The translations under genes and the position numbers were made by a program. A stretch of DNA of 64,000 bases from Acidobacteria bacterium Ga0077534. Lineage in GTDB: Bacteria; Acidobacteriota; Blastocatellia; Pyrinomonadales; Pyrinomonadaceae. This document shows, piece after piece, positions 44,184 through 60,914 of this stretch. The stretch covers positions 248,001 through 312,000 of the forward strand of contig LNEI01000018.1 in NCBI GenBank assembly GCA_001464455.1, in the 5' to 3' direction. Positions within the stretch are counted from its first letter, which is position 1; each line of letters starts with the position of its first letter. The notes beneath the pieces are model-generated. The model did not search any database, was not told the origin of the DNA, and worked only from the letters and a program-made list of their open reading frames with translations.

Positions 44184-45014
44184 CTAACGTAAATAGTCTT
44201 CAAGTTTCGTCGAAGCATCCGTTTTTTCGTCGCGATATTTGACGATGATCGGGCAGTAGATCGACAGCCCGTTCTCTTTCCCAAATCCGCTGGTCACCGC
44301 ACGCGATCCCTGAACGACCACAGCTCCCGCAGGAATTTCCAGCGAGTTTCCGCCTTCGGATTTAATGATGCGGTTGTTCGGCAGGTCAAAAACCGGGGTC
44401 GAACGCGTCAAAATAACTCCGCTCGCGAGCACCACGCGTTCGCGCACGATCGTGCCTTCGTAAACGCCGGTGTTTCCACCCACGAGTACGTCATCCTCAA
44501 TAATTACGGGTGTCGCGTTGACAGGTTCTAACACGCCGCCGATCTGCGCGGCTGCTGAAAGGTGTACGCGTTTCCCGATCTGTGCGCACGACCCGACAAG
44601 AGCGTGCGAATCGACCATCGTTCCCTCGTCAACATACGCACCGACATTTATATAAGCCGGAGGAACCACAACGACGCTCGGAGCGACATGCGAACCGTCG
44701 CGAATAGCCGAACCGCCCATCACGATCCTCACGCCGTCTTCCAACGTCATCGGCCGCAGCGGAAATGTGTCTTTGTCAAAAAATTGAAGGGTTTCCGTCG
44801 GTTTCGACATCTCGACCATCTTTCCCATGCGAAACCCGAGCAGAATTCCCTGTTTTACCCAGGCGTTGGCATTCCAATTCCCGCTCGCATCCTTTTCAGC
44901 CGAACGAATTTCACCTCGACGGAGTGCAGTTTTAAATTGCTCGTATATTTCCCGGTCATCGGAAGTAAATTCCGACTTCGCAAATAGTTTTTCTATCTCG
45001 TTCTGTAAATTCAC
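44184..45014 (-). CDS. dapD: 2,3,4,5-tetrahydropyridine-2,6-dicarboxylate N-succinyltransferase
   Basis: The enzyme adds succinyl to tetrahydrodipicolinate in the succinylase branch of lysine/diaminopimelate synthesis. The 276-residue protein has DdAsxDRS-type helix N-terminus and the left-handed beta helix with hexapeptide repeats ([33 protein letters not shown]). [16 protein letters not shown] precedes the helix as in DapD. It fits with dapA, dapB, the M20 deacylase and the aminotransferase nearby. Confidence 0.95.
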
Positions 45015-45037
45015 AAATTCCTCAGTCTACGATTCGT

Positions 45038-45114
45038 TGCAAAAGCCCGCGCGTAAGCAAGGGCGAAACTCGCAACTTGAAAGTATCGCCCTTGCTCACG
45101 CGCGGGCTTCTGCA
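45038..45114. repeat. Intergenic palindrome, GCAAAAGCCCGCG family, copy 3
   Basis: Left arm 45038-45066 and right arm 45083-45114 match copy 1 closely; TGCAAAAGCCCGCGCGTAAG is one arm. It sits between the dapD start and the stop of the next gene, in the upstream region of dapD. Confidence 0.85.
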
Positions 45115-45116
45115 CC

Positions 45117-45503
45117 TTATCGATCAGCCAAGACCGCCCGAGCGATCAATCCAATTCCGCCCGCGAACAAAACCAACATAATTATCGTGTTAAAAAGGCT
45201 CGTGGGTTGGAAATATATTTGTAGGTTCATCAAAATGCCTGACGCGATGACGATCAAGCTGATCGCGATCAGGATCCAGCCAATTATCGATTTGCCGTTA
45301 AAGAAAACAAAGGCGATCCCAAAGATCAGCGGCACGAGCGACAGTCCAAAAGTGTTGTAACCGCCCCAATTCCAAAACGCGCTGGTCACGATCACGCGGC
45401 TGATGAGCATATATCCGCCCGCGATGGTCATGATGAATCCGATCACGAACTCCACCAAACCTCCCGAAGTCCCGCCCGGTTTTTTAAGATCTTCGAAGTC
45501 CAT
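45117..45503 (-). CDS. Small four-helix membrane protein, unknown
   Basis: The ATG at 45503 starts MDFEDLKKPGGTSGGLVEF. The 128-residue protein has four hydrophobic helices and no catalytic motif. It may be a small integral membrane protein of unknown role. Its start is 65 bases from REP DNA and its stop abuts the palindrome copy 3. Confidence 0.6.
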   Translation of the reverse strand: MDFEDLKKPGGTSGGLVEFVIGFIMTIAGGYMLISRVIVTSAFWNWGGYNTFGLSLVPLIFGIAFVFFNGKSIIGWILIAISLIVIASGILMNLQIYFQPTSLFNTIIMLVLFAGGIGLIARAVLADR

Positions 45504-45517
45504 AAAAACATCCCCGA

Positions 45518-45690
45518 GCCCGCGTAGCGGGCAAAAAGCATGTAGCCCACGGCCCAAGCCGTGGGGAAAACGGTATTAAGTCAGCCGAGCTATCGTAGAT
45601 AGCGGCACCAATCCCTTGCAGCTGTTCTGTCACCGGCACGAGGGCTTCGCATGATTCTACCGCGATCCATATAGCGAAGCGCTATGCCTA
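45518..45690. repeat. REP cluster left of the RAYT-like gene
   Basis: Three hairpins are seen: GCCCGC-GTA-GCGGGC at 45518-45532; GTAG followed by CCCACGGC-CCAA-GCCGTGGG at 45542-45565; and GCTATC-GTA-GATAGC at about 45590-45604. A degraded ATAGCG-AAG-CGCTAT hairpin lies near 45671-45685. GTAG next to the hairpin foot is the REP hallmark. Confidence 0.8.
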
Positions 45691-45718
45691 TCGAACCTAA
45701 CGACAACTCGCCAATGGA

Positions 45719-46165
45719 TCATTTCCAAAGATACTTCTCGTCGAAACCAATACTTGCAGCCCGCAGCATATCTTTGAACTCCTCATCAAATATCTGCTTT
45801 ATGTGATGCTGTTTTTGATTCTGCACATAGCGTCGTACGGTTGGCAACTGAGATTCTCCGACCGTGAAAGCCCCATAACCTGTTTGCCATTCGAATTTTG
45901 GATCGATAACGGTTCTAGCCCAGTTTGTAATGGCCGGTTTCAGTTGCTCCAGGAACTTCGAAACGTTGAGCGTCGGTTTTAGCCTGACGATTATATGAAC
46001 ATGATCCGGCATTCCGCCGATCTCAATGCAAACTCCATTCAATCCTCTTACCACGCCGCCAATATATTCATAAAACCTTTCTTCGTATTGTTGTGAAATA
46101 AATGGATAACGCTCTTTCGTCGCGAACACTATGTGAAAAAGAAGATTGGTATATGTATGCGGCAT
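45719..46165 (-). CDS. REP-associated tyrosine transposase (RAYT), IS200/IS605 TnpA-like
   Basis: The 148-residue protein is a Y1 HUH nuclease. GMPDHVHIIV at residues 51-60 has the two His (55 and 57) that hold metal, and Tyr113 in VRRYVQNQ is the likely nucleophile. The flanks carry GTAG-hairpin REP sequences on both sides, the hallmark of RAYT genes. RAYTs mobilise REP sequences; no second tnpB gene is present. The gene is intact. Confidence 0.9.
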   Translation of the reverse strand: MPHTYTNLLFHIVFATKERYPFISQQYEERFYEYIGGVVRGLNGVCIEIGGMPDHVHIIVRLKPTLNVSKFLEQLKPAITNWARTVIDPKFEWQTGYGAFTVGESQLPTVRRYVQNQKQHHIKQIFDEEFKDMLRAASIGFDEKYLWK

Positions 46166-46220
46166 TTTAAGGTCCTCGCATCGGAAAACTAATGAAAAAA
46201 GATCTGACCCGCGTTGCGGC

Positions 46221-46404
46221 TAAAAACATGTAGCCCACGGCCATAGCCGTGGGAAAATGATTAAATTCGAAACGAGCTATCGTAGATAGCGACCGAGCAC
46301 CCGCGGATCGGGCTGCCACCCGTTTCACGGGCTCGATTCATAATATTCGAACGTTCCCATAGCGAAACGCTATGGGCTACATGCTTTTCACCCGCTACGC
46401 GGGC
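46221..46404. repeat. BIME-like REP pair right of the RAYT-like gene
   Basis: GTAG (46230-46233) precedes hairpin CCCACGGC-CATA-GCCGTGGG (46234-46253). The inverted partner CCCATAGCG-AAA-CGCTATGGG (46356-46376) is followed by CTAC (46377-46380). GCTATC-GTA-GATAGC and an ending CCCGCTACGCGGGC also occur, matching the left cluster. Confidence 0.85.
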
Positions 46405-46432
46405 ATTTGATATCCGAATCGAATGATAAAAA

Positions 46433-47341
46433 CTAGGCTGTCTTGATTCCAACCCCTTTCATCACTTCCCGTAGCATTTTCCTGCTCGCGTCCGTCACCG
46501 GAACTAGCGGCAATCTCAAATTCTCCTCACACAAACCCATTTCCTTCATCACAAACTTACACGGAGCTGGCGAAGATTCCACAAAGTTCGCCTCCATCAG
46601 CGGCAGGATCTTGTAATGGATCTTGCGGGCGAAATGGAACGATCCGTTTAGAGCGTGATCGACCATCTTGACGGTTTCTTTTGGAATTTCATTCGCACAG
46701 ACCGATACCAAACCGTCGGCTCCTAGCGAGATCAGCGGTATAGACGACGCGTCGTCGCCTGAAAGGACTTTGAAGTTCTTCGGCCGCTTCGCGATTGTCT
46801 CCATAATTTGCGAATAGTTTCCCGAAGCCTCTTTGGTCGCGACGATATTTTCAAACGCGGCTGCCAGACGCAGAGTTGTTTCGGCGGAAATATTCGACGC
46901 CGTACGCGACGGAACGTTATAAAGCACGATCGGAAAGCCTTTCACTGACTTCGCGATCTCCGAATAGTGTGCAAAAAGGCCCTCCTGGGTCGGTTTGTTG
47001 TAGTAAGACGCCACGATCAAAGCCGCATCGGCTCCGGCTTCTCTGGCGGCACGCGTATGGTCGATCGCGGCGGCTGTATTGTTCGTCCCCGTACCGGCGA
47101 TCACCTTCGCACCGTTCTTATGAGCTACCTCGACGGTCAAGCGGATCAAATGAGCCTGCTCGGCAGATGTCATCGTCACGTTTTCACCCGTGGTGCCGCA
47201 CGGAACGAGCAATTTTACCCCGCCCTTTATCTGCCGCTCGACGAGTTTCTGAAAACACAAATCATCGATCGATCCGTCTTTCCTAAAGGGCGTAACAAGT
47301 GCCGTAGCGGTTCCGCGAAGCCAATCTAATTTCATTGTCAT
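46433..47341 (-). CDS. dapA: 4-hydroxy-tetrahydrodipicolinate synthase
   Basis: DapA condenses pyruvate with aspartate semialdehyde in lysine synthesis. The 302-residue protein has GTATALVTPFRKDGSID, PCGTTGENVTMTSAEQ, the Tyr in VLYNVPSRTASNIS and the Schiff-base Lys in VATKEASGNYSQIM. The fold is the DHDPS TIM barrel. MTMKL and MKL are equally possible starts. The gene lies between the REP cluster and the trpF-like gene. Confidence 0.95.
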   Translation of the reverse strand: MTMKLDWLRGTATALVTPFRKDGSIDDLCFQKLVERQIKGGVKLLVPCGTTGENVTMTSAEQAHLIRLTVEVAHKNGAKVIAGTGTNNTAAAIDHTRAAREAGADAALIVASYYNKPTQEGLFAHYSEIAKSVKGFPIVLYNVPSRTASNISAETTLRLAAAFENIVATKEASGNYSQIMETIAKRPKNFKVLSGDDASSIPLISLGADGLVSVCANEIPKETVKMVDHALNGSFHFARKIHYKILPLMEANFVESSPAPCKFVMKEMGLCEENLRLPLVPVTDASRKMLREVMKGVGIKTA

Positions 47342-47430
47342 AACGAAGTTCAGTATATTCTCAGCCGTGCGGAACTTACAAAAATAAATACGAGGAATTT
47401 ATGGCTGTTATAAGAAAAGCTTGACGGTAT

Positions 47431-48096
47431 CTAGTTCGTGGCGGCCGAAATAAATCGTTCCAATTTGAACAGATCAAGGTTCCCATCGGTCCGTACACCA
47501 GAACAAATGTCCAAACCGAATGGCTGAACCACTTCGATGGCTTCTCGAACGTTTTCAGCGTTAAGTCCGCCGGCTAAAAATACTGGTTTGCCGCAAGTTT
47601 CAACGATCTTTCGCGACAACCGCCAATCATGCCGCCTTCCTGTGCCGCCTAACTCTTTCACAGCGAGCGTAGGATTTCCGCTATCGAGCAAAATAGCATC
47701 GACATGTTCCGCGATTTCCGCCGCCTCGTCCACAGAACTTTCCCCGACCACGTGAATAACCTGCACAAGCTTTACCTGCGGCACTGCTGCACGTATCGCC
47801 GCGTATTCACGCCCCAAAAGTTCGTCGACGATCTGGATAGTACTTGTATGCGTCCGCTCATGATGAGCAACGATGTTTTCTGCGGTTTGCTCACTCGTCA
47901 ACAAAAAAGTAGCCACCGGCGGCGGCACTGAAGCCGCAATTGTCCTAATTAGTTCATCCGCGATCGGCCCCGGCCCACTAGGCATCTTCCCAACTAATCC
48001 AATTGCGGACGCACCGAAGGAAATAGCGTGCGCAGCTTCTTGGACGCTTGAAATACAACAAATCTTGATTCTTGGGCTGAAGCAGTTTGAAACCAC
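47431..48096 (-). CDS. TrpF-like phosphoribosylanthranilate isomerase family protein with altered start
   Basis: The protein has the TrpF barrel pattern: KICCISSVQEAAHAISFGASAIGLV, DAILLDSGNPT with the catalytic Asp and FLAGGLNAENV near the phosphate site. The first motif is KICCISS instead of KICGIT. The start is unclear: no ATG lies near, GTG at 48096 inside a dispersed repeat or TTG at 48126 are the options. Genes like this exist as a TrpF paralog family, so tryptophan synthesis is not certain. Confidence 0.75.
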   Translation of the reverse strand: MVSNCFSPRIKICCISSVQEAAHAISFGASAIGLVGKMPSGPGPIADELIRTIAASVPPPVATFLLTSEQTAENIVAHHERTHTSTIQIVDELLGREYAAIRAAVPQVKLVQVIHVVGESSVDEAAEIAEHVDAILLDSGNPTLAVKELGGTGRRHDWRLSRKIVETCGKPVFLAGGLNAENVREAIEVVQPFGLDICSGVRTDGNLDLFKLERFISAATN

Positions 48097-48618
48097 AGAT
48101 AAATACAGATAAACACAGAAAATCAACCGAGGACAACTCGCTTTATTTCAACACGCGGATTGCCAAAATTGATCAGAAGACAAATTCGTGCACCCGTCGC
48201 ACGCAAGTAATTCATACATTGAGCGATATGGACCTCAGTCAATATCTTAACTGCTTTGAGTTCGACCATTACCAGGCCGTTGACCACCAGGTCAGCCTCG
48301 TATATTCCGACCGTCACCCCGTCGTATACAACCGATAATCGATGCTGTTGAACTACCTCATAACCAGCCTTCCGAAGTTCATGCGCCAGAGCATTTTCAT
48401 AAATAACTTCCAGAAAACCACACCCAAGCGTGTTTGAAACTGTGTACGCACAGCCAATGATCGCCTCGGTAATCGGATTGATCTCCCCGAAGCTTGCCGA
48501 TCTAAGCGTTCCGCGACCGGAGTTAACAAAATCATTCATGATCATTTAACGTCATTAAAAGCCCACGCAAAAGATAAGGCAAATCTATTTGTGTTCATCT
48601 GTATTTATCTGTGGTTTC
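48089..48618. mobile_element. Candidate element: GxxExxY gene between 29-bp inverted repeats
   Basis: GAAACCACAGATAAATACAG-type repeats occur at 48089-48117 and, inverted, at 48590-48618, with 28 of 29 bases equal. They bracket the GxxExxY gene. The repeats enter the ends of both neighbouring genes. Target-site duplication was not clear. Confidence 0.5.
48123..48545 (-). CDS. GxxExxY protein, PD-(D/E)XK-like fold
   Basis: The 140-residue protein has the name motif GFLEVIY at residues 43-49 and a nuclease-like core EADLVV...VMVELKAVK, the D-(x)n-E-x-K pattern. HIAQCMNYLRATG and CLLINFGNPRVEIKRVVL complete the family pattern. Function is unknown; the fold suggests nuclease activity. It lies between inverted dispersed repeats and shares its stop with the TTG start candidate of the trpF-like gene. 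Confidence 0.85.
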   Translation of the reverse strand: MIMNDFVNSGRGTLRSASFGEINPITEAIIGCAYTVSNTLGCGFLEVIYENALAHELRKAGYEVVQQHRLSVVYDGVTVGIYEADLVVNGLVMVELKAVKILTEVHIAQCMNYLRATGARICLLINFGNPRVEIKRVVLG

Positions 48619-49313
48619 AATTCAATGATCTGGTTTAGGATGTCCGTAAACTCAAAGAATCCTTGCTTTCCTACAACCCACTCTGTCGCATGAAGCGCTC
48701 CGTGAGCGAAGCCTTCTCTAGAACGGGCGGTGTGTTCTAGCAGTATCTGATCTGCAGGGCCGTCGAAGCCTACCCGATGAGTTCCGGGAATGTTTCCGGC
48801 ACGGGTTGCGGCGATGGTGAAGTCTTTTTTGATGTGTTCGGCGACGATATCCTTTAGTTTTAGGGCCGTACCGCTCGGGGCGTCGAGTTTGCGGGAGTGA
48901 TGCTGTTCTTCGATAAACGTTTCGTACTGCGGAAACTTCGAAAAAAGCTCGGCGGCAAAGTCTGCAATGCGGTAGAAAAGATTTACACCGATCGAGAAGT
49001 TCGCCCCGTAAACCATCGCCCCGTTTGCATGCGTGACCATGCGGGAAATTGCTTCGAGATCTTCGTTCCAACCCGTCGTACCTTCGACAAGCGGAACGTG
49101 CGAAGAAAGACACGCCTCGACATTCCGCCGAACTGCCGAAGCGGTCGTAAAATCTATCGCGACATCGCACCCGTAAAGTTTCCCCGCGATCTCCGCCGGC
49201 GTACGCTCGGCATCCGATTCGTCAACAATCGCCGCGATCTCGTACCCTTTTTCAACGGCCAGCCGTTCAATAAGTTTCCCCATCGCTCCGTAACCAATTA
49301 GTGCGATCTTCAT
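48585..49313 (-). CDS. dapB: 4-hydroxy-tetrahydrodipicolinate reductase
   Basis: DapB reduces hydroxy-tetrahydrodipicolinate with NAD(P)H in lysine synthesis. From ATG at 49313 the protein begins MKIALIGYGAMGKLIERLA, the nucleotide-binding fold. VEGTTGWNED and the active-site EEQHHSRKLDAPSGTALKL are present. The last eleven residues (LKPQINTDEHK) come from a dispersed repeat. An outer start at 49319 is also possible. Confidence 0.93.
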   Translation of the reverse strand: MKIALIGYGAMGKLIERLAVEKGYEIAAIVDESDAERTPAEIAGKLYGCDVAIDFTTASAVRRNVEACLSSHVPLVEGTTGWNEDLEAISRMVTHANGAMVYGANFSIGVNLFYRIADFAAELFSKFPQYETFIEEQHHSRKLDAPSGTALKLKDIVAEHIKKDFTIAATRAGNIPGTHRVGFDGPADQILLEHTARSREGFAHGALHATEWVVGKQGFFEFTDILNQIIELKPQINTDEHK

Positions 49314-49325
49314 AAGCATTTTTGG

Positions 49326-49388
49326 CACGAATGAACACGAATAACACGAATTCAAGCGCTCTGATTCGTGATATTCGTGTTATTCGTG
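49326..49388. repeat. CACGAATAACACGAAT-type inverted repeat
   Basis: CACGAATGAACACGAATAAC (49326-49351) and ATTCGTGATATTCGTG (49364-49388) are near inverted copies, so a hairpin of about 25 bases per arm forms. The right arm is inside the M20 gene and encodes its last residues. Confidence 0.75.
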
Positions 49389-50383
49389 GCTAATAATTTC
49401 TTAACCAAGTTAGTGTAAAGCTCAACAGAGATCTCAAGATCTTTCTTCAAAACAAATTCATTCTTCGTATGGGCGACGAGGATCGAACCGGGACCCAAAA
49501 GCAGCGGCTGGCCCCAGTTTGTTAGGTGCGGGATGTCGGTTGTGAATCGGACCACCTTTTGCTTAAAGCCTTCGACTGCCAGCATTTTTACCGGGAGGCT
49601 GTACGACATGATTTCCAGCTCGCCGCGGTCGCGGATGAGGCTGTTTAGGGCGTTTACTATGGGTTCTTCGGGTGTGGTTAGACGTATCAGGATGCCTGCT
49701 TCTGCATTTGGCGGAATTACGTTCAGAGCGATGCCGCCGTCGAGCGTTGCGATGTTGCAGGTGGTCTCACCGAAGAATTCGTCGTGTGGAAATTTTGTAT
49801 GACGAACGTCTTCGAGAATGTCGAGCAGCTTTTCTATCGCCGAATCTCCCTGCTCAGGATACGCCGAATGAGCAGCCTTTCCCTTTGTCTTGATCTTCGC
49901 CCGAAACGCACCCTTCGAACCGATCGCGAGATCATTATCGGTCGGCTCGCCGTTGATCATGTATTCACACCTCGCGGCGAGCGGGTGTTCGTTCGCAATT
50001 TTTGCTCCCGTCGACGCACGCTCTTCTTCGACGGTGTAAAGCAGGCCGATGTCTTCGATTCCCTCTTTTCGCAACAGTTCCGCAGCCGTGATCTGCGCCG
50101 CAATGATCCCCTTCGCATCACAAGAACCTCGCCCGTAGATCTTTTCGTCATCCTCAGTCGGCGCGATAAACGGGGGAACCGTATCCATATGCGTCGAAAG
50201 CCAAACCCGCGGCGTTTCGTTCAAATACGCGATCACGTTGTTCTGGTTTTCGCTTACCTTTTGCAGTTCGACTGTCCAGCCGAGCTCAGTCAAATAGTCG
50301 AGAAGCCAAAAGCCGACTGCTTCTTCATCGCCGGAGGTCGATGGGATCGACATCAACCGTGTTGTTAGTTTAAAAAGATTCAT
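49352..50383 (-). CDS. M20-family metallopeptidase/deacylase, candidate DapE or LysK/ArgE-type
   Basis: The ATG at 50383 has AAAGGA seven bases upstream. STHMDTVPP, YGRGSCDAKG and TVEEERASTGA mark the binuclear zinc site of M20. PGSILVAHTKNEFVLKKDLE holds the last ligand. The neighbourhood of dapA, dapB and dapD makes succinyl-diaminopimelate desuccinylase likely, but the sequence also resembles LysK/ArgE deacetylases. The final residues NTNITNQSA are encoded by a dispersed repeat. Confidence 0.85.
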   Translation of the reverse strand: MNLFKLTTRLMSIPSTSGDEEAVGFWLLDYLTELGWTVELQKVSENQNNVIAYLNETPRVWLSTHMDTVPPFIAPTEDDEKIYGRGSCDAKGIIAAQITAAELLRKEGIEDIGLLYTVEEERASTGAKIANEHPLAARCEYMINGEPTDNDLAIGSKGAFRAKIKTKGKAAHSAYPEQGDSAIEKLLDILEDVRHTKFPHDEFFGETTCNIATLDGGIALNVIPPNAEAGILIRLTTPEEPIVNALNSLIRDRGELEIMSYSLPVKMLAVEGFKQKVVRFTTDIPHLTNWGQPLLLGPGSILVAHTKNEFVLKKDLEISVELYTNLVKKLLATNNTNITNQSA

Positions 50384-50606
50384 AACCTGTCCTTTCAACT
50401 GGATCGAGATCGGGATATTGCGAATAAACGGGCTTTAGCAAATCAAGGTCTATGCGGCCTATTGAGAGTCCAATTCCGCGCTTAACAACGTTGAACTCTT
50501 CTTTCGAACACGCTTTCTCTATCTGATCGACCTCCAGAATTGAAACTAATTCTCGAATTGCCAACTCACCCCTCGCTATAATCTTCTCAGCCGTTACTCT
50601 GTCCAT
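50370..50606 (-). CDS. Small protein of unknown function upstream of the M20 gene
   Basis: This 78-residue protein overlaps the M20 start by 14 bases. It is helical with VERTGYESF at the end and no recognised domain. Tight coupling suggests it is real. Confidence 0.45.
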   Translation of the reverse strand: MDRVTAEKIIARGELAIRELVSILEVDQIEKACSKEEFNVVKRGIGLSIGRIDLDLLKPVYSQYPDLDPVERTGYESF

Positions 50607-51091: not shown

Positions 51092-52339
51092 ATGGCTAAA
51101 CGATCTATCGAAACTGAATTTGTACACGCGGGCGAACGCGCCCCTTTGCCGCAGGGCCTGCCGAACTCGACGCCCATCTTTGCCAATTCGACCTACAGCT
51201 ACGAGTCGATGGAAGAGGCGGAACGCGTTTTTACCGGCGACCTGAAGGATTACATCTACACCCGTTATGGCAATCCGACGGTCGATTCGCTGCAGGAAGC
51301 GGTTCGCGTTTTGGAAAACGGAGCGGTCGCCAGAGCTTACGCCTCCGGAATGGCCGCCCTGCACGCAGCCTTGCTCGCCAGCGATCTGGCTCCCGGCTCG
51401 GTTGTTCTCGCGTCGCGTGATCTTTACGGAGCGAGCTTTGATCTGCTTTTCAATGTTTTCGGGCCTTTTGGCGTGAAAACCCAGTTAGCCGACTTTTCCG
51501 ACCTCGACGACCTTAGAGCAAGAGTCGCCGAACTAAAACCACGCGTCCTGCTCGGCGAGACTATCTCAAATCCACTGTTGAAAGTGTTGGACATCGCAGC
51601 GGTTGCTGAGATCGCTCATTCCGTCGGTGCCAAGTTTATCGTGGACAGCACGTTTGCTACGCCTTTTCTGGCGAGGCCGCTCGATCTCGGGGCCGATATC
51701 GTTGTCCACAGTGCGACAAAATATCTAGGCGGGAGTGCAGACGCGATCGGCGGAATCGCCGTTGCTCGTGACATTGCTGACGAAGCGGCACTGACGAGTG
51801 CAATGAAGCTCGCGGGCGGGATCTTGAGCGTGTGGGAAGCTCATTCGATATCACGCGGCCTGCGAACTCTGGCTTTGAGACTCGAAAGGCAATGCTCGAA
51901 CGCCGAAAAATTAGCGGTCGAATTGGGCAAGCGGCACGATATCAAGTTGGTTCACTACCCGAAATTCGCGACCGACGGTGTAACCGAAAAAGTACTTCGC
52001 GAGCCTTTTGGCGGGGCTTTGGTCTCGATCGTTCTCGCGGACGACACACGGGAAGCGGCGTGGAGATTCATGAATGCTCTTGAACTCATCGTCCGGGCGA
52101 CGACACTCGGTGACGTGTTCACGACGGTTTCCCACTCGGCGTCATCATCACATCGCGAACTTACGGAAAAGCGTCGAAACACGCTCGGAATCACGGAAGG
52201 ATTGGTGCGAATTTCGGTCGGCATCGAGTCGGTCGAAGACTTGCTAGCCGACATCGATCAAGCTCTAGTCTCTGTGTCAGAACCGGGAACGGTAGTGACC
52301 GGGTCAACGATCGGCGGAGATCAAGGAGCGGCGGCATGA
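51092..52339 (+). CDS. Cys/Met-metabolism PLP enzyme (cystathionine gamma-synthase/O-acylhomoserine sulfhydrylase-like)
   Basis: The ATG at 51092 gives MAKRSIETEFVHAGE. Typical fold-type I features are YTRYGNPTVDSLQEAVRVLE, ASGMAALHAALLA, the Asp-Ser-Thr-Phe-Ala-Thr motif (IVDSTFATPFLARPLDLGAD), and the PLP Lys in VVHSATKYLGG. Enzymes of this family form cystathionine or homocysteine from O-acetylhomoserine. MetX and a sulfur-carrier system downstream suggest direct sulfhydrylation. Confidence 0.92.
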   Translation: MAKRSIETEFVHAGERAPLPQGLPNSTPIFANSTYSYESMEEAERVFTGDLKDYIYTRYGNPTVDSLQEAVRVLENGAVARAYASGMAALHAALLASDLAPGSVVLASRDLYGASFDLLFNVFGPFGVKTQLADFSDLDDLRARVAELKPRVLLGETISNPLLKVLDIAAVAEIAHSVGAKFIVDSTFATPFLARPLDLGADIVVHSATKYLGGSADAIGGIAVARDIADEAALTSAMKLAGGILSVWEAHSISRGLRTLALRLERQCSNAEKLAVELGKRHDIKLVHYPKFATDGVTEKVLREPFGGALVSIVLADDTREAAWRFMNALELIVRATTLGDVFTTVSHSASSSHRELTEKRRNTLGITEGLVRISVGIESVEDLLADIDQALVSVSEPGTVVTGSTIGGDQGAAA

Positions 52340-52788
52340 TCAAGCTAAGCAAAGAGCATCTCGGAGAGATCAGGGCCCACGCCGAGGCCGATTATCCCCA
52401 CGAATGCGGCGGCCTTCTGCTCGGCCATCTCGACGGCACGACCAAAACGGTCGTTGAAACCTTGCCGATGGAAAACACGGCGGCAGAAGAAACGCGGCAC
52501 GACCGAGTCCTGATCGACCCGCGAGCGTTGATGCTTGCAGAACGAGCAGCCCGGAAAAAAGGGCTCGATGTGATCGGCTATTACCATTCGCACCCGGATG
52601 ACGAGGCGGTCCCGTCGCAGTTCGACCTCGACCACGCCCTGCCGGTCTGGTCGTACATTATCGTCTCGGTCCGCAACAAAAAGGCGGTCGATTGGAACTC
52701 ATGGGAAATGCTTAGCGACCGTTCGAAGTTTCTTTTGGAAGATGCATTAGTAGGGGAGAAAGAAGAACAGCTGGTAGCTGCCAGCTAA
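52336..52788 (+). CDS. JAMM/MPN-domain metalloprotease (M67, Mec/HcyD-like)
   Basis: The 150-residue protein is a stand-alone JAMM domain. Glu23 and His84-x-His86 with Ser94 and Asp97 (HSHPDDEAVPSQFD) complete the zinc site. Such proteins cut C-terminal tails from ubiquitin-like sulfur carriers to expose Gly-Gly. The gene overlaps the PLP gene by four bases and precedes a fused carrier gene, so that is the likely substrate. Confidence 0.9.
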   Translation: MIKLSKEHLGEIRAHAEADYPHECGGLLLGHLDGTTKTVVETLPMENTAAEETRHDRVLIDPRALMLAERAARKKGLDVIGYYHSHPDDEAVPSQFDLDHALPVWSYIIVSVRNKKAVDWNSWEMLSDRSKFLLEDALVGEKEEQLVAAS

Positions 52789-52817
52789 CAGGCTATTAGC
52801 CACAATTATTTAGTTTT

Positions 52818-54257
<1,440 letters not shown>

Positions 54258-54267
54258 CTTAGTGGTC

Positions 54268-54338
54268 TTTGTGTCTTAACTCTGTGTCTCCGTGGTGAAA
54301 AGATCTTTTACCACAGAGACACAGAGAGAAGACACAAA
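54268..54338. repeat. ACCACAGAGACACAGAG-type hairpin
   Basis: Left arm 54268-54296 and right arm 54310-54338 are complementary with a few mismatches, around a 13-base loop. It is located between the carrier fusion and metX. Confidence 0.8.
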
Positions 54339-54358
54339 ACACGCAGAGGGGAAAAAAG

Positions 54359-55435
54359 ATGTACGAGATAGATCTGACGCTGAATGAACCATTTCGCCTG
54401 GAATCAGGCGAGGTTTTGGATGAAGTGAAACTGCGTGCGACCGTTTACGGCAAACTCAACGCCGACCGGTCGAACGCGGTGCTTGTTTTCCACGCCCTTA
54501 CGGGAAGCTCCCGTATCGGCGACTGGTGGAACGGGCTGATGTGTAGCGGCTGCGCTCTCGACACCTCCGAATTCGCCTTCATTTGCGTCAACTATCTCGG
54601 CTCCAGCTATGGCTCGACCAGTGCGAGTCAGTTGAAGAAACGCCGAGCGAAAGGTACGAGGGCCGCCGAACTGCCGATCGTTACGACGCGTGACATTGTT
54701 CGCACGAATGTCCTTCTCCTCGAACATTTGGGCGTTAAAGCGCTCAAATACGTCATCGGCGGGAGCGTGGGCGGCATGCTCGCCCTTCAGTTTGCTGTCG
54801 ACTATCCCGAGGTCGCCGAGCATTGCGTTTCCATCGCGGCGACACCGCTTTCGGCGATGGGGCTCGCCCTCAACCATCTGCAGCGCCAGGCGATCAAGCA
54901 GAACGACCTCGAGCTGGCCCGCAAGATCGCCGTTGTTTCGTATAAGTCGCCCCGCAAGTTTGGTGAAAGATTTGGCCGAAACCCGAACCGCAACGGCGAA
55001 AACCCAAAGCAAAATCGCAACGACCGCTTCGACGTGGGTGGATATCTGGATCACCAGGGAGATCTATTTAAGGACAGATTTGAGATCGACAGCTACGACC
55101 TGATCACCAAAGCGATGGACCTCTTCGACCTTTCGAACAATGATCTGAAACAGATCCGTTCCAAGATATCGCTCGTCGGCATATCGAGTGACTGGCTGTT
55201 CCCGGCGGCGGACGTCAGGGCTCTGAAAGATCGGCTGGTTGGCTCCGGTGTCGACGCAAACTATCACGAGATCAGGTCGGAAGACGGCCACGACGCATTT
55301 CTCAGCGACGTCGCCGAAACTTCACGCGTTCTTCGGCACATTCTCGGCGAACCTGACGAGGAGATGACCGTCAATAGTTTTGTCGGATATCGGCGGCCAC
55401 TCGATCAACTGCGCGGCTGCTATAAGGTTCTGTAG
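54359..55435 (+). CDS. metX: Homoserine O-acetyltransferase
   Basis: MetX makes O-acetylhomoserine (or O-succinyl- in some) from homoserine. The 358-residue alpha/beta hydrolase has VFHALTGSSRIGDWW, the nucleophile Ser in VIGGSVGGMLALQF, and SEDGHDAFLSD with catalytic His. The family identity is firm; acyl donor specificity is not certain. It supplies the acceptor for the PLP enzyme in this operon. Confidence 0.93.
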   Translation: MYEIDLTLNEPFRLESGEVLDEVKLRATVYGKLNADRSNAVLVFHALTGSSRIGDWWNGLMCSGCALDTSEFAFICVNYLGSSYGSTSASQLKKRRAKGTRAAELPIVTTRDIVRTNVLLLEHLGVKALKYVIGGSVGGMLALQFAVDYPEVAEHCVSIAATPLSAMGLALNHLQRQAIKQNDLELARKIAVVSYKSPRKFGERFGRNPNRNGENPKQNRNDRFDVGGYLDHQGDLFKDRFEIDSYDLITKAMDLFDLSNNDLKQIRSKISLVGISSDWLFPAADVRALKDRLVGSGVDANYHEIRSEDGHDAFLSDVAETSRVLRHILGEPDEEMTVNSFVGYRRPLDQLRGCYKVL

Positions 55436-55441
55436 ATCTCT

Positions 55442-55541
55442 TTTTTGCGTCCTCTTTGCGATCTTTGCGGCCTTTGCGTTAAATCCCCTTCTTGCGAACG
55501 ATTCTTGATCGTGTATGACAAGAAATTTTTAACGCAAAAAA
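55442..55541. repeat. TTTGCGGCCTTTGCGTTAA-type dispersed repeat
   Basis: TTTGCG units at 55442-55483 and an inverted TTTAACGCAAA near 55528-55538 flank an unrelated centre. The type resembles 5235-5268 and 63021-63110. Confidence 0.55.
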
Positions 55542-55605
55542 GCATTGGCGTTTGCCCGTTCAGTTTTGCTTATGGCCACTATATGATTTAATTTTACTTT
55601 CTATT

Positions 55606-56967
55606 GTGACTGAAGATCTGCACCCTGTCGTAATGAAATTCGGCGGCACGTCGGTTGGTGACGTTGCCGCTTTTGAGCGTGTTTTTGGGATCGTTTCGAG
55701 CCAGCTCGATCGACGGCCAGTCGTTGTCGTGTCGGCGATGACCAAGGTAACCGATGCTCTGCTCGCAGCTTTTGAGATCGCTCGTAGCGGTCAGGCGGAG
55801 GATGCGTTCTCGTCGCTCGAACCGCATTTTGAACGCCATCTCGAGATCACACGCCGCTTTGAGATCGCTGAATCCAGCCCTTTTCACAACGAACTCACCT
55901 ACGCCCGCGAGGAACTCGCCGACCTGTTAAAACGCGTGTCACGCCGTAGCCTTCCGCTTTCCATGCTCAAGGATGCCGTCGTTTCCTACGGCGAGCAGCT
56001 TTCGTCGCGGCTGCTTGCGGAGGTTTTAAAATCTAAGGGAGTCAACGCGAGACAGGTCGATTCGCGGCGCCTGATCGTCACCGACGACGAATACGGCTCA
56101 GCCCAGCCTCTATGGGACGAGACCGAGCGACTCATCAAGCTCGAACTCGCTCCGATGATCGCAGATGACGAGGTGCCGATCATGGGCGGCTTCATCGCAG
56201 CCAGCCGCGGCGGCGAAACGACGACTCTTGGCCGCGGCGGTTCCGATTACTCGGCCGCACTCGTCGCAGCCGCTCTTCGAGCGAATGAACTGCAAATATG
56301 GACGGATGTCACAGGAGTCATGACCTGCGACCCGCGAATTTGCAGTTCCGCCGTAACGATTCCGGTCCTTTCATACGAAGAGGCTGCCGAGCTGGCCTAT
56401 TTCGGGGCAAAGGTCCTGCACCCGAAAACGATCAAGCCCGCCGTAGACACAAACATTCCCGTCCGCGTCTGTAATACATTCGAACCAAACGAGATAGGCA
56501 CCATGGTGCTCGCCGATTCGGGCGAAACGCCAAACAAAATAAAGTCCATCGCCTCAAAAAAGAACATCACGATCCTGCGCATAACGTCAGCCCGAATGCT
56601 CGGCAGTTATGGCTTTATGAGTGCGTTGTTCCAGGTTTTCGAGCGATATCGCACGGTCATAGATGTCGTTTCTACATCGGAGGTCTCGGTCGCTTTAACG
56701 CTCGACAACACCGATTCCCTCGAACAGATCGTCACGGAGCTTTCCCGGCTAGGCGAGGTTGAGGTCGAGCGCGGGTACGCCGTCGTCTGCGTCGTCGGCG
56801 AAGGCTTGCGAGAAAGCACGGGCCTCGCCGCAAAGGTTTTTTCGACGATAGCTGACGTAAACATCGCCCTCGTCTCACACGGAGCGTCGAGCGTTAACCT
56901 AACCTTTGTTGTCAAAGAAGAGCTAGCGGCTGGAGTGATCAAGAAGATCCATCGACAACTTCTTTAA
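55606..56967 (+). CDS. lysC: Aspartate kinase
   Basis: The enzyme phosphorylates aspartate, first step to lysine, methionine and threonine. Proposed start is GTG at 55606; ATG at 55633 is also possible. VVMKFGGTSVGD starts the kinase domain, with GGFIAASRGGETTTLGRGGSDYSAAL holding the substrate site. Two ACT domains for feedback control follow at about 300-450. The gene closes the methionine operon. Confidence 0.95.
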   Translation: MTEDLHPVVMKFGGTSVGDVAAFERVFGIVSSQLDRRPVVVVSAMTKVTDALLAAFEIARSGQAEDAFSSLEPHFERHLEITRRFEIAESSPFHNELTYAREELADLLKRVSRRSLPLSMLKDAVVSYGEQLSSRLLAEVLKSKGVNARQVDSRRLIVTDDEYGSAQPLWDETERLIKLELAPMIADDEVPIMGGFIAASRGGETTTLGRGGSDYSAALVAAALRANELQIWTDVTGVMTCDPRICSSAVTIPVLSYEEAAELAYFGAKVLHPKTIKPAVDTNIPVRVCNTFEPNEIGTMVLADSGETPNKIKSIASKKNITILRITSARMLGSYGFMSALFQVFERYRTVIDVVSTSEVSVALTLDNTDSLEQIVTELSRLGEVEVERGYAVVCVVGEGLRESTGLAAKVFSTIADVNIALVSHGASSVNLTFVVKEELAAGVIKKIHRQLL

Positions 56968-60113: not shown

Positions 60114-60914
60114 TTAACCACAAAGTACCGCACCGCCATTGATGTTTAAGATCTCTCCTGTTATGTGCCGCGACCAGTCAGATAGCAAAAAGCAGATCGC
60201 GACCGCAATGTCGTCTGTCGCCGCCATTCGATTGAGAGGGATCGACTTCAGAACTTTCTGCTTGTATTCCTCGTCATCAAAAACCTCGCGGACCATCGCG
60301 GTCTCGATCCAGCCGGGAGCGACAGCGTTGACGCGGATCTTCGGGCAGAGTTCGCTGGCCAGAGCTTTGGTAAATGATATTTGCCCGCCTTTCGAGGCGG
60401 CGTAGTTTGAATAATTCGCTTCGCCCCGCTGTCCGGCAGTCGACGAGACCATCACGATCGCCGCCGAAGCCTGCTTCTTCATCGCCGGAACGCAGGCCTT
60501 TGTCATCGCCCACGCTGATTTGAGGTTCGTATTTATGACCTTGTTCCAAAGCTCCTCGGACATGTCCTCGATCGGCGCTCCGTCCCAAATACCCGCGTTG
60601 CACACTAGTAGATCGATCCGTCCAAAAGCCTCCAGCGTTTGCGTCGCGATCTTGGCAGCCTCGTTAAAGTCCGAGACATCTGCTTTCACGGCGATGGCCC
60701 CGACGCCTTTGTTCTTGCAAAGCTCAACCGTCTCAAACGCCTCGACGTCGTTGCTCAAATAATTAACAACAACGTTCGCCCCCGCCTCAGCCAACCGCAA
60801 CGCCGTCGCCCGCCCGACGCCTCGCGAAGCACCGGTAACAATAGCGGTTTTGCCCGCAAAAAGATTGGAGGGAAGAGATATTTGAGCTGCGTTTTCGATC
60901 ACTTTTGCTCCCAT
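60114..60914 (-). CDS. Short-chain dehydrogenase/reductase (FabG-like)
   Basis: The 266-residue protein has TGASRGVGRATALRLAEAGA for NAD(P) binding, NAGIWDGAPIED, the catalytic Ser in IVMVSSTAGQRGE, and YAASKGG with Tyr and Lys. The family reduces 3-oxoacyl-ACP or other carbonyls. No operon partner is present, so its substrate is unknown. Confidence 0.9.
   Translation of the reverse strand: MGAKVIENAAQISLPSNLFAGKTAIVTGASRGVGRATALRLAEAGANVVVNYLSNDVEAFETVELCKNKGVGAIAVKADVSDFNEAAKIATQTLEAFGRIDLLVCNAGIWDGAPIEDMSEELWNKVINTNLKSAWAMTKACVPAMKKQASAAIVMVSSTAGQRGEANYSNYAASKGGQISFTKALASELCPKIRVNAVAPGWIETAMVREVFDDEEYKQKVLKSIPLNRMAATDDIAVAICFLLSDWSRHITGEILNINGGAVLCG

Follow-up and report, generated by a model that had tools for sequence, protein, structure and literature searches.

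A CysO-type thiocarboxylate cassette with a gamma-family PLP enzyme in the place of CysM: a candidate route to homocysteine in an acidobacterium

In this study, we analysed a stretch of 64,000 nucleotides (the window) from Acidobacteria bacterium Ga0077534 (contig C18, positions 248001-312000; genome of 4.2 Mb, 97.9% completeness; genome G000 below, where G numbers denote genomes and L numbers fetched loci or contigs). A gamma-family pyridoxal 5'-phosphate (PLP) enzyme, a JAMM protease and a fusion of a ubiquitin-like carrier, an E1-type activating domain and a rhodanese are encoded next to a MetX-family homoserine O-acyltransferase. We lean, by a modest degree, towards reading these genes as a thiocarboxylate cassette of the CysO/Mec+ type in which the gamma-family PLP enzyme stands in for CysM and makes homocysteine.

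The five genes that an earlier note on this DNA had set out were all intact and in the order given there, on the plus strand between 51092 and 56967, and Pfam and NCBIfam agreed on their families. They encode the PLP enzyme (51092-52339, 415 residues; PF01053, 2.3e-101), the JAMM/JAB metalloprotease (52336-52788, 150 residues; PF14464, 1e-26), the carrier-E1-rhodanese (ThiS-ThiF/MoeB-rhodanese) fusion (52818-54257, 479 residues), MetX (54359-55435) and an aspartate kinase of the lysine-sensitive type (from a GTG at about 55606 to 56967). The stop codon of the PLP gene and the start codon of the JAMM gene overlap by 4 bases (ATGA); 29 bases separate JAMM and fusion, 101 fusion and metX, and 170 metX and kinase.

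The fusion holds carrier, activating enzyme and sulfur-donor domain on one chain, as the note had claimed and as three Pfam domains (PF02597, PF00899 and PF00581) confirmed. Its CysO-type carrier domain (residues 1-91, 52818-53090) ends in Ala-Gly-Gly. With residues 1-96, phmmer matched the ThiS/MoaD-family chain 4n6e_B (4.1e-20), presumably from Amycolatopsis, and 3dwg_C (1.1e-17), which we take to be CysO of M. tuberculosis and which the record itself calls cfp10A; both chains stop at the same Gly-Gly, while the window protein continues for 388 residues. Gly90-Gly91 before Ser92 (53085-53090), the predicted cut and thiocarboxylate site, was kept in 29/29 aligned fusions (that of the window and 28 relatives), and the linker behind it varied in length and letters. 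Among nine separate carrier genes, two end at Gly-Gly, four carry two extra residues and three have longer tails. E1 chemistry requires a free C-terminal glycine, as in ThiS, MoaD and CysO. Since the Gly-Gly lies inside the chain, the carrier has to be released from it, a cut that the adjacent JAMM protease probably makes. MoaX of M. tuberculosis, a MoaD-MoaE fusion, similarly has a Gly-Gly-Ser carrier end within the chain and works only after cleavage behind the second glycine, between Gly82 and Ser83; it differs in being fused to MoaE, in an unidentified protease and in serving the molybdopterin pathway (PMC4326299).

In the E1 domain (residues 111-345, 53148-53852; PF00899, 1.5e-84), C287 and the set C270/C273/C344/C347 were conserved across the 29 fusions, as was C436 in the active-site loop CKGGVRS of the rhodanese domain (residues 379-470, 53952-54227; PF00581, 6.3e-15). 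Among the NCBIfam MoeB/MoeZ models, the fusion passed PRK08762 and PRK05690 and failed PRK07411, the MoeZ model PRK07878 and TIGR02355. With regard to free thiS and moaD genes, for which the note had named a genome search, G000 has its own ThiS, which passes the TIGR01683 cut-off and adjoins a ThiG-like gene (named by eye), a MoaE-like gene (by eye), a MoaD-like gene (TIGR01682, 42.5 bits against a cut-off of 66.15) and a second E1 without rhodanese. The fusion need not serve molybdopterin or thiazole, but it may have such a second role beside the cassette, because mycobacterial MoeZ is described as serving both MoaD and CysO (PMC3227635).

The JAMM protease has the full set E23, H84-x-H86, S94 and D97, each conserved in 97% or more of 41 aligned rows, and its closest PDB entry was 2kcq. 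The same source describes Mec+ as freeing cysteine from CysO (PMC3227635); by analogy, the window protease might both mature the carrier and release the product. Its branch is long (1.02, against 0.11-0.22 in five PLP-bearing relatives), and it lacks the Arg of a NAREE stretch that is identical in eight other aligned sequences. Both features could reflect a changed substrate, or merely relaxed constraint. Elsewhere, a single open reading frame (ORF) of 618 residues in G259 (L071:6034-7890) joins JAMM, carrier, E1 and rhodanese, and ORFs of about 470 residues in G014 (L084:5774-7186) and G175 (L087:7070-8476) fuse a CysK/CysM-family domain to JAMM.

Of 297 genomes sampled across the phylum, 129 had JAMM relatives, including 4/13 of the genus, and 40 loci, with near relatives favoured, were chosen from the 129. 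A CysK/CysM-family gene stood in the cluster at 34/40 of these loci (two of the 34 hold fragments only) and was absent from it in L060, L061, L078, L094, L096 and L097. A PLP enzyme of the window type was found at 4/40: in G219 and G114 it occurs without CysM in the cluster, G038 has the order CysM-PLP-JAMM-fusion and G086 the order PLP-CysM-JAMM-fusion. The CysM proteins of G038 and G086 scored best with the TIGR01138 cysM model (365 and 387 bits against a cut-off of 394). The order CysM-PLP-JAMM-fusion recurs on the named acidobacterial contigs L178 and L179, with CysM cut in L179, so that CysM and the PLP enzyme stand together in four relatives (G038, G086, L178, L179). The two contigs came from a scan with five PLP proteins, which is no census: it gave at least 80 loci, panel neighbours were flagged at 4, and among the flagged loci listed only L178 and L179 had JAMM and fusion; no JAMM was seen on the 3.5-kb contig L180. 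Chance adjacency of PLP enzyme, JAMM and fusion was rejected, as the trio recurs in G038, G114, G219, G086, L178 and L179, in four of these with CysM. MetX and the kinase were considered as old members of the cassette and likewise rejected, neither having been found in the panel search of the relatives' loci L059-L062. Three PF00291 matches were named by eye only, as threonine synthase (L018, L021) and TrpB (L020). A lipoyl-synthase-like (LipA) gene, encoding another sulfur-inserting enzyme, lies a few genes from the cassette in four PLP-bearing relatives (L059:2462-3394, L060:10317-11228, L061:4691-5617 and L178:1529-2440, by eye) and not in the window.

Since most of the relatives' clusters hold CysM, we read the cassette as of the CysO-CysM-Mec+ type, with another acceptor enzyme beside CysM or instead of it. 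In the trees, the window's fusion (100/100) and JAMM protease (100/98) group with those of the same five PLP-bearing relatives, nested in a larger group the rest of which has CysM. Together with the arrangements, these trees suggest that CysM came first and was then replaced.

The PLP enzyme stayed under the cut-off of every NCBIfam family among the 25 of 46 matches listed; it scored 326 (cut-off 666) and 307 bits (cut-off 549.7) with methionine gamma-lyase models, 324.5 bits with that of O-succinylhomoserine sulfhydrylase (cut-off 510) and 298 bits with the MetY-type TIGR01326 (cut-off 495). In the tree, whose references were labelled by family models and not by assay, one clade (100/100) unites 16 proteins, which come from related genomes and from contigs with Acidobacteria, Bacillota, Chloroflexaceae or Rubrobacteraceae in their titles; MetY (100/100), cystathionine gamma-lyase/gamma-synthase (CGL/CGS)-like enzymes and a gamma-lyase-like enzyme lie outside it. 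The window enzyme, which the note had called sulfhydrylase-like, is far from MetY in this tree. Its sister (71% identity, 100/100) is the enzyme of G291, encoded at the aspartate kinase locus between a short-chain dehydrogenase/reductase (SDR) and a CysK-like gene.

K210, presumably the Schiff-base lysine, and other residues were invariant in the alignment. All 16 clade members have Gly-Asp where the CGL-like enzyme has Gly-Gly, and MetY likewise has Gly-Asp. At the position of a Glu of the CGL-like enzyme, which we take to be a mark of cystathionine enzymes, the 16 proteins mostly have Thr, and otherwise Ala or Pro. The fold search gave Z values of 51.5-54.7 over the 50 matches listed, a range in which lyase, synthase and sulfhydrylase are not separable. 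Entry 3ri6, presumably the MetY structure from Wolinella, matched only partially (176 bits, residues 26-235); its absence from the 50 fold matches listed excludes nothing. In G025 the PLP gene is followed by a lone rhodanese (130 bits against the rhodanese domain of the window), and on the Bacillota contig L185 (42% identity) by MetE-half-like genes and a homocysteine methyltransferase (by eye). The neighbours of the clade thus suggest sulfur transfer and methionine, and neither sequence nor fold settles the reaction.

The sulfur amino-acid genes were compared across 19 genomes of the genus and family, G000 among them, and 14 control genomes. G000 has three full-length PF01053 members: the PLP enzyme of the window, a CGL/CGS-like enzyme (on C24) and an alanine/glutamate-racemase-like enzyme. 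In the genome search, MetY was not found, nor were CysK or CysM, the sole match to the CysK/CysM model at E 1e-40 being a cystathionine beta-synthase (CBS; TIGR01137, 485.5 bits, cut-off 510.25); the same holds for CBS in G219, which has the PLP-JAMM-fusion cluster. CysE exceeded its cut-off in 0/19 genomes, the best hit in G000 being a weak partial match of 39 bits (cut-off 210.65). No PF01077 sulfite reductase was found in G000, while 11/14 control genomes match. This raises the question of the sulfur source, for which thiosulfate, a cysteine desulfurase and imported sulfur compounds are candidates as suppliers of the carrier. The C24 enzyme passed the PRK07811 cystathionine gamma-synthase model (527 vs 513 bits) and has counterparts by PF01053 score (519-537 bits) in 18/19 genomes; further PF01053 matches were those of G189 (412 bits) and G075 (421 bits). 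With regard to metB, metC and cysK, for which the note had also named a search, the genome gave no CysK/CysM and holds a CGL/CGS-like enzyme that passes a cystathionine gamma-synthase cut-off. Because CBS and the CGL/CGS-like enzyme are present and CysK, CysM and CysE were not found, cysteine is most likely made from homocysteine, and from the gene content homocysteine is the likely sulfur entry point in G000. The PLP enzyme of the window is the only candidate found for making homocysteine from the MetX product by direct sulfhydrylation.

The metX-family gene would supply O-acetylhomoserine; MetX scored higher with the acetyl model (288.7 bits, cut-off 500) than with the succinyl model (231.1 bits, cut-off 560), reaching neither curated cut-off. 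At E 1e-30, MetX was found in only 2/19 genus and family genomes, G000 and G275, and MetA in 0/19. The MetX search was not blind, as the distant MetX of G283 still gave 321 bits with the same query. G275 has the order MetY-MetX-SDR-kinase, with a MetY that passes PRK08248 (733.6 vs 726 bits); in the window the order is PLP-JAMM-fusion-MetX-kinase, and the SDR gene (60114-60914) lies on the opposite strand. The cassette of the window, which has MetX and no MetY, therefore occupies the place that MetY has in G275. G283 has MetY and MetX behind a CysM-JAMM-fusion cluster.

The kinase is better read as an adjacent gene of the lysine cluster, since it passes the NCBIfam model of lysine-sensitive aspartokinase III (489.7 vs 455 bits) and dap (lysine) genes follow it 3' on the same strand in 10/14 of the relatives' loci. 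This synteny weakens the earlier proposal of one operon running from kinase to sulfhydrylase. The slot 5' of the kinase varies among the 14 loci: a CysK-like gene occupies it in 8/14, among them G291 with the PLP enzyme in addition, MetY-MetX occupy it in G275, and the others have none of these. Sulfur amino-acid genes seem to have landed in this slot repeatedly, and in the window it is filled by cassette and metX. The CysK-like genes directly 5' of the kinase encode 354-383 residues (L261, L263, L265, L266, L269, L270, L272 and L273).

The closest known system is CysO-CysM-Mec+/MoeZ of M. tuberculosis. It belongs to type 4c of the operon classes predicted by Iyer, Burroughs and Aravind (2006), which lists an acidobacterium, Susi (PMC1779556). 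A CysO-type Gly-Gly carrier, a rhodanese-fused E1 and JAMM stand in one cluster in both; the window differs in that a gamma-family PLP enzyme replaces CysM, no CysM/CysK-family acceptor having been found in its cluster or genome, in the adjacent MetX, and in having the carrier joined to E1 and rhodanese in a single chain, a fusion shared by 28 aligned relatives. The HcyS/HcyD/HcyF route of Wolinella, cited by Price et al., 2018 (PMC5764234) and in PMC6225789, also combines carrier, JAMM, E1 and gamma-type PLP enzyme, with O-acetylhomoserine as presumed substrate. Type 4e, where Wolinella is listed, has an E1 without rhodanese together with SirA and sulfate-reduction genes (PMC1779556). In the window the E1 carries a rhodanese, the carrier is CysO-like, the PLP enzyme is far from the MetY type, no SirA or sulfate-reduction genes were seen by eye among the ORFs at 45-62 kb, and, as said above, the genome gave no PF01077 match. 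The match to the Wolinella set that the note had drawn is not supported, and kinship with that set was rejected on these features. HcyS itself is reportedly a carrier that needs C-terminal trimming. Another published carrier-E1 fusion near a homocysteine enzyme is alike in these respects and differs in being ThiF-type; the passage on it mentions neither JAMM nor rhodanese. By titles and the starts of abstracts, a partial coverage that is no proof of absence, none of the papers listed described a gamma-type PLP enzyme in a cassette of the CysO type. The word thiocarboxylate is absent from the main text of GapMind (PMC7311316).

Taken together, the following pathway can be proposed. The JAMM protease would cut the fusion after Gly91 and free the carrier, whose C-terminal glycine would be adenylated by the E1 domain, as its conserved sites suggest. 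The rhodanese, by comparison with MoeZ, would pass sulfane sulfur on to form the carrier thiocarboxylate, and MetX, judged by its family, would provide O-acetylhomoserine. The PLP enzyme, as putative acceptor enzyme, would exchange the acetate for the carrier sulfur, so that the donor would be the thiocarboxylate and not free sulfide, and the resulting carrier-homocysteine would be hydrolysed by JAMM, by comparison with Mec+, to give homocysteine. This would be converted to methionine and, through CBS and the CGL/CGS-like enzyme, to cysteine. Of the joint use for methionine that the note had inferred, the tie of carrier, E1, rhodanese and JAMM to a PLP enzyme and MetX stands, and the genome gave no second candidate for making homocysteine directly; the Wolinella kinship is unsupported and the kinase-to-sulfhydrylase operon is weakened. 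It is tempting to speculate further, tentatively and with somewhat less confidence than the reading itself receives, that a cysteine-making carrier system changed its product by an acceptor swap alone. The beta-type CysM would have given way to a gamma-type PLP clade without a family name of its own, whose members would draw their sulfur from a CysO-type carrier excised from the carrier-E1-rhodanese chain by the JAMM of the cassette; in the window this would then have been coupled to MetX and have replaced MetY as homocysteine synthase, and relatives without MetX would use another activated homoserine, e.g., O-phosphohomoserine.

Several observations weigh against the cassette reading. The chemistry is proposed from sequence, and by solved sequences and Foldseek the PLP enzyme resembles methionine gamma-lyases most, although CGL, CGS and sulfhydrylases follow at little distance. 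What speaks most strongly against a single account for the whole clade is G219, which has the same gaps as G000 and lacks MetX. Six other PLP bearers (G038, G114, G219, G086, G291 and G025) gave neither MetX (E 1e-30) nor MetA, so that the enzyme there cannot use an O-acylhomoserine, barring an unrecognised transferase. The genome of the closest PLP relative, G291, has no JAMM in the phylum search. The PLP enzyme can thus exist without the cassette, and the window trio is no plain copy of the other trios; because of this sister, the PLP gene and the JAMM-fusion pair of the window may have separate recent histories. A single CysK/CysM-model match was seen in 7/19 genomes, so that the gap is not peculiar to genomes with the cassette; the CysE model exceeded its cut-off in only 8/14 control genomes and could overlook a divergent CysE. 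The kinase, judged by its model and synteny, lends no support to a dedicated methionine operon, and a hairpin stands between cassette and metX.

The PLP enzyme might instead be a conventional sulfhydrylase working with free sulfide and O-acetylhomoserine, JAMM and fusion serving molybdopterin, thiazole, tRNA thiolation or cysteine. We consider this rather unlikely, while acknowledging that G291 lacks JAMM, that the fusion passes two MoeB cut-offs and that mycobacterial MoeZ is described as serving MoaD beside CysO (PMC3227635). That the PLP gene overlaps the JAMM gene by 4 bases and that six other clusters hold the trio argue against it, as does the failure to find CysM in G000 or G219, and the presence in G000 of its own ThiS, a MoaD-like gene and another E1. 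To our knowledge, moreover, JAMM proteases are not required for molybdopterin or thiazole.

Improbable, in our view, is a role of the PLP enzyme upstream, as a gamma-lyase that strips sulfur from methionine, homocysteine or cystathionine for relay by the carrier. The nearest solved sequences and Foldseek matches would fit such a lyase, as would the lack of MetX and MetA matches in the other PLP-bearing genomes of the genus and family and the CysM acceptor alongside in G038, G086, L178 and L179. In G000 and G219, however, no CysM acceptor was found, and in the window MetX is adjacent, with no other enzyme found for direct sulfhydrylation of its product. The window enzyme also has Ala at what we take to be the position of Cys116, a residue we presume to have a role in gamma-lyases. 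Very improbable is forward transsulfuration, with MetX and the C24 enzyme as cystathionine synthase (as its PRK07811 score would allow), the window PLP enzyme as lyase and the carrier serving cysteine, since C24 counterparts in 18/19 genomes against MetX in 2/19 imply a usual role that needs no acylhomoserine, and since CysK, CysM and CysE were not found and cysteine itself seems to be derived from homocysteine.

If the cassette reading is true, the thiocarboxylate pathway has been re-plumbed: one carrier module would serve two amino-acid products, the choice being set by the adjacent PLP enzyme, and genomes that hold both acceptor enzymes are still available for study. It would also be a second, independent carrier-dependent homocysteine synthesis besides that of Wolinella, with a JAMM protease that matures a fused ubiquitin-like carrier and releases the product, as deubiquitinases do with ubiquitin precursors. 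A missing metY or metB would then be poor ground for predicting methionine auxotrophy in such bacteria.

With respect to transcription, the hairpin is an inverted repeat with 33-base arms (54268-54338, arms 88% complementary) between fusion and metX. Given this hairpin and the gaps of 101 and 170 bases, a single transcript for all five genes is not established. A pattern search of the window found no copies of the arms besides these two, no Rfam riboswitch family reached its gathering score in the whole window, and in the promoter and terminator scan sites were no commoner than in shuffles. The repeat resembles a small inserted hairpin element, and an ORF at 45719-46165 is like an IS200/REP-associated tyrosine transposase (named by eye). 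Upstream, at 44184-50398, dapD, dapA, trpF, dapB and a dapE/argE-like gene were recognised by eye on the minus strand; as in relatives such genes lie behind the kinase and share its strand, this region has undergone rearrangement in the window.

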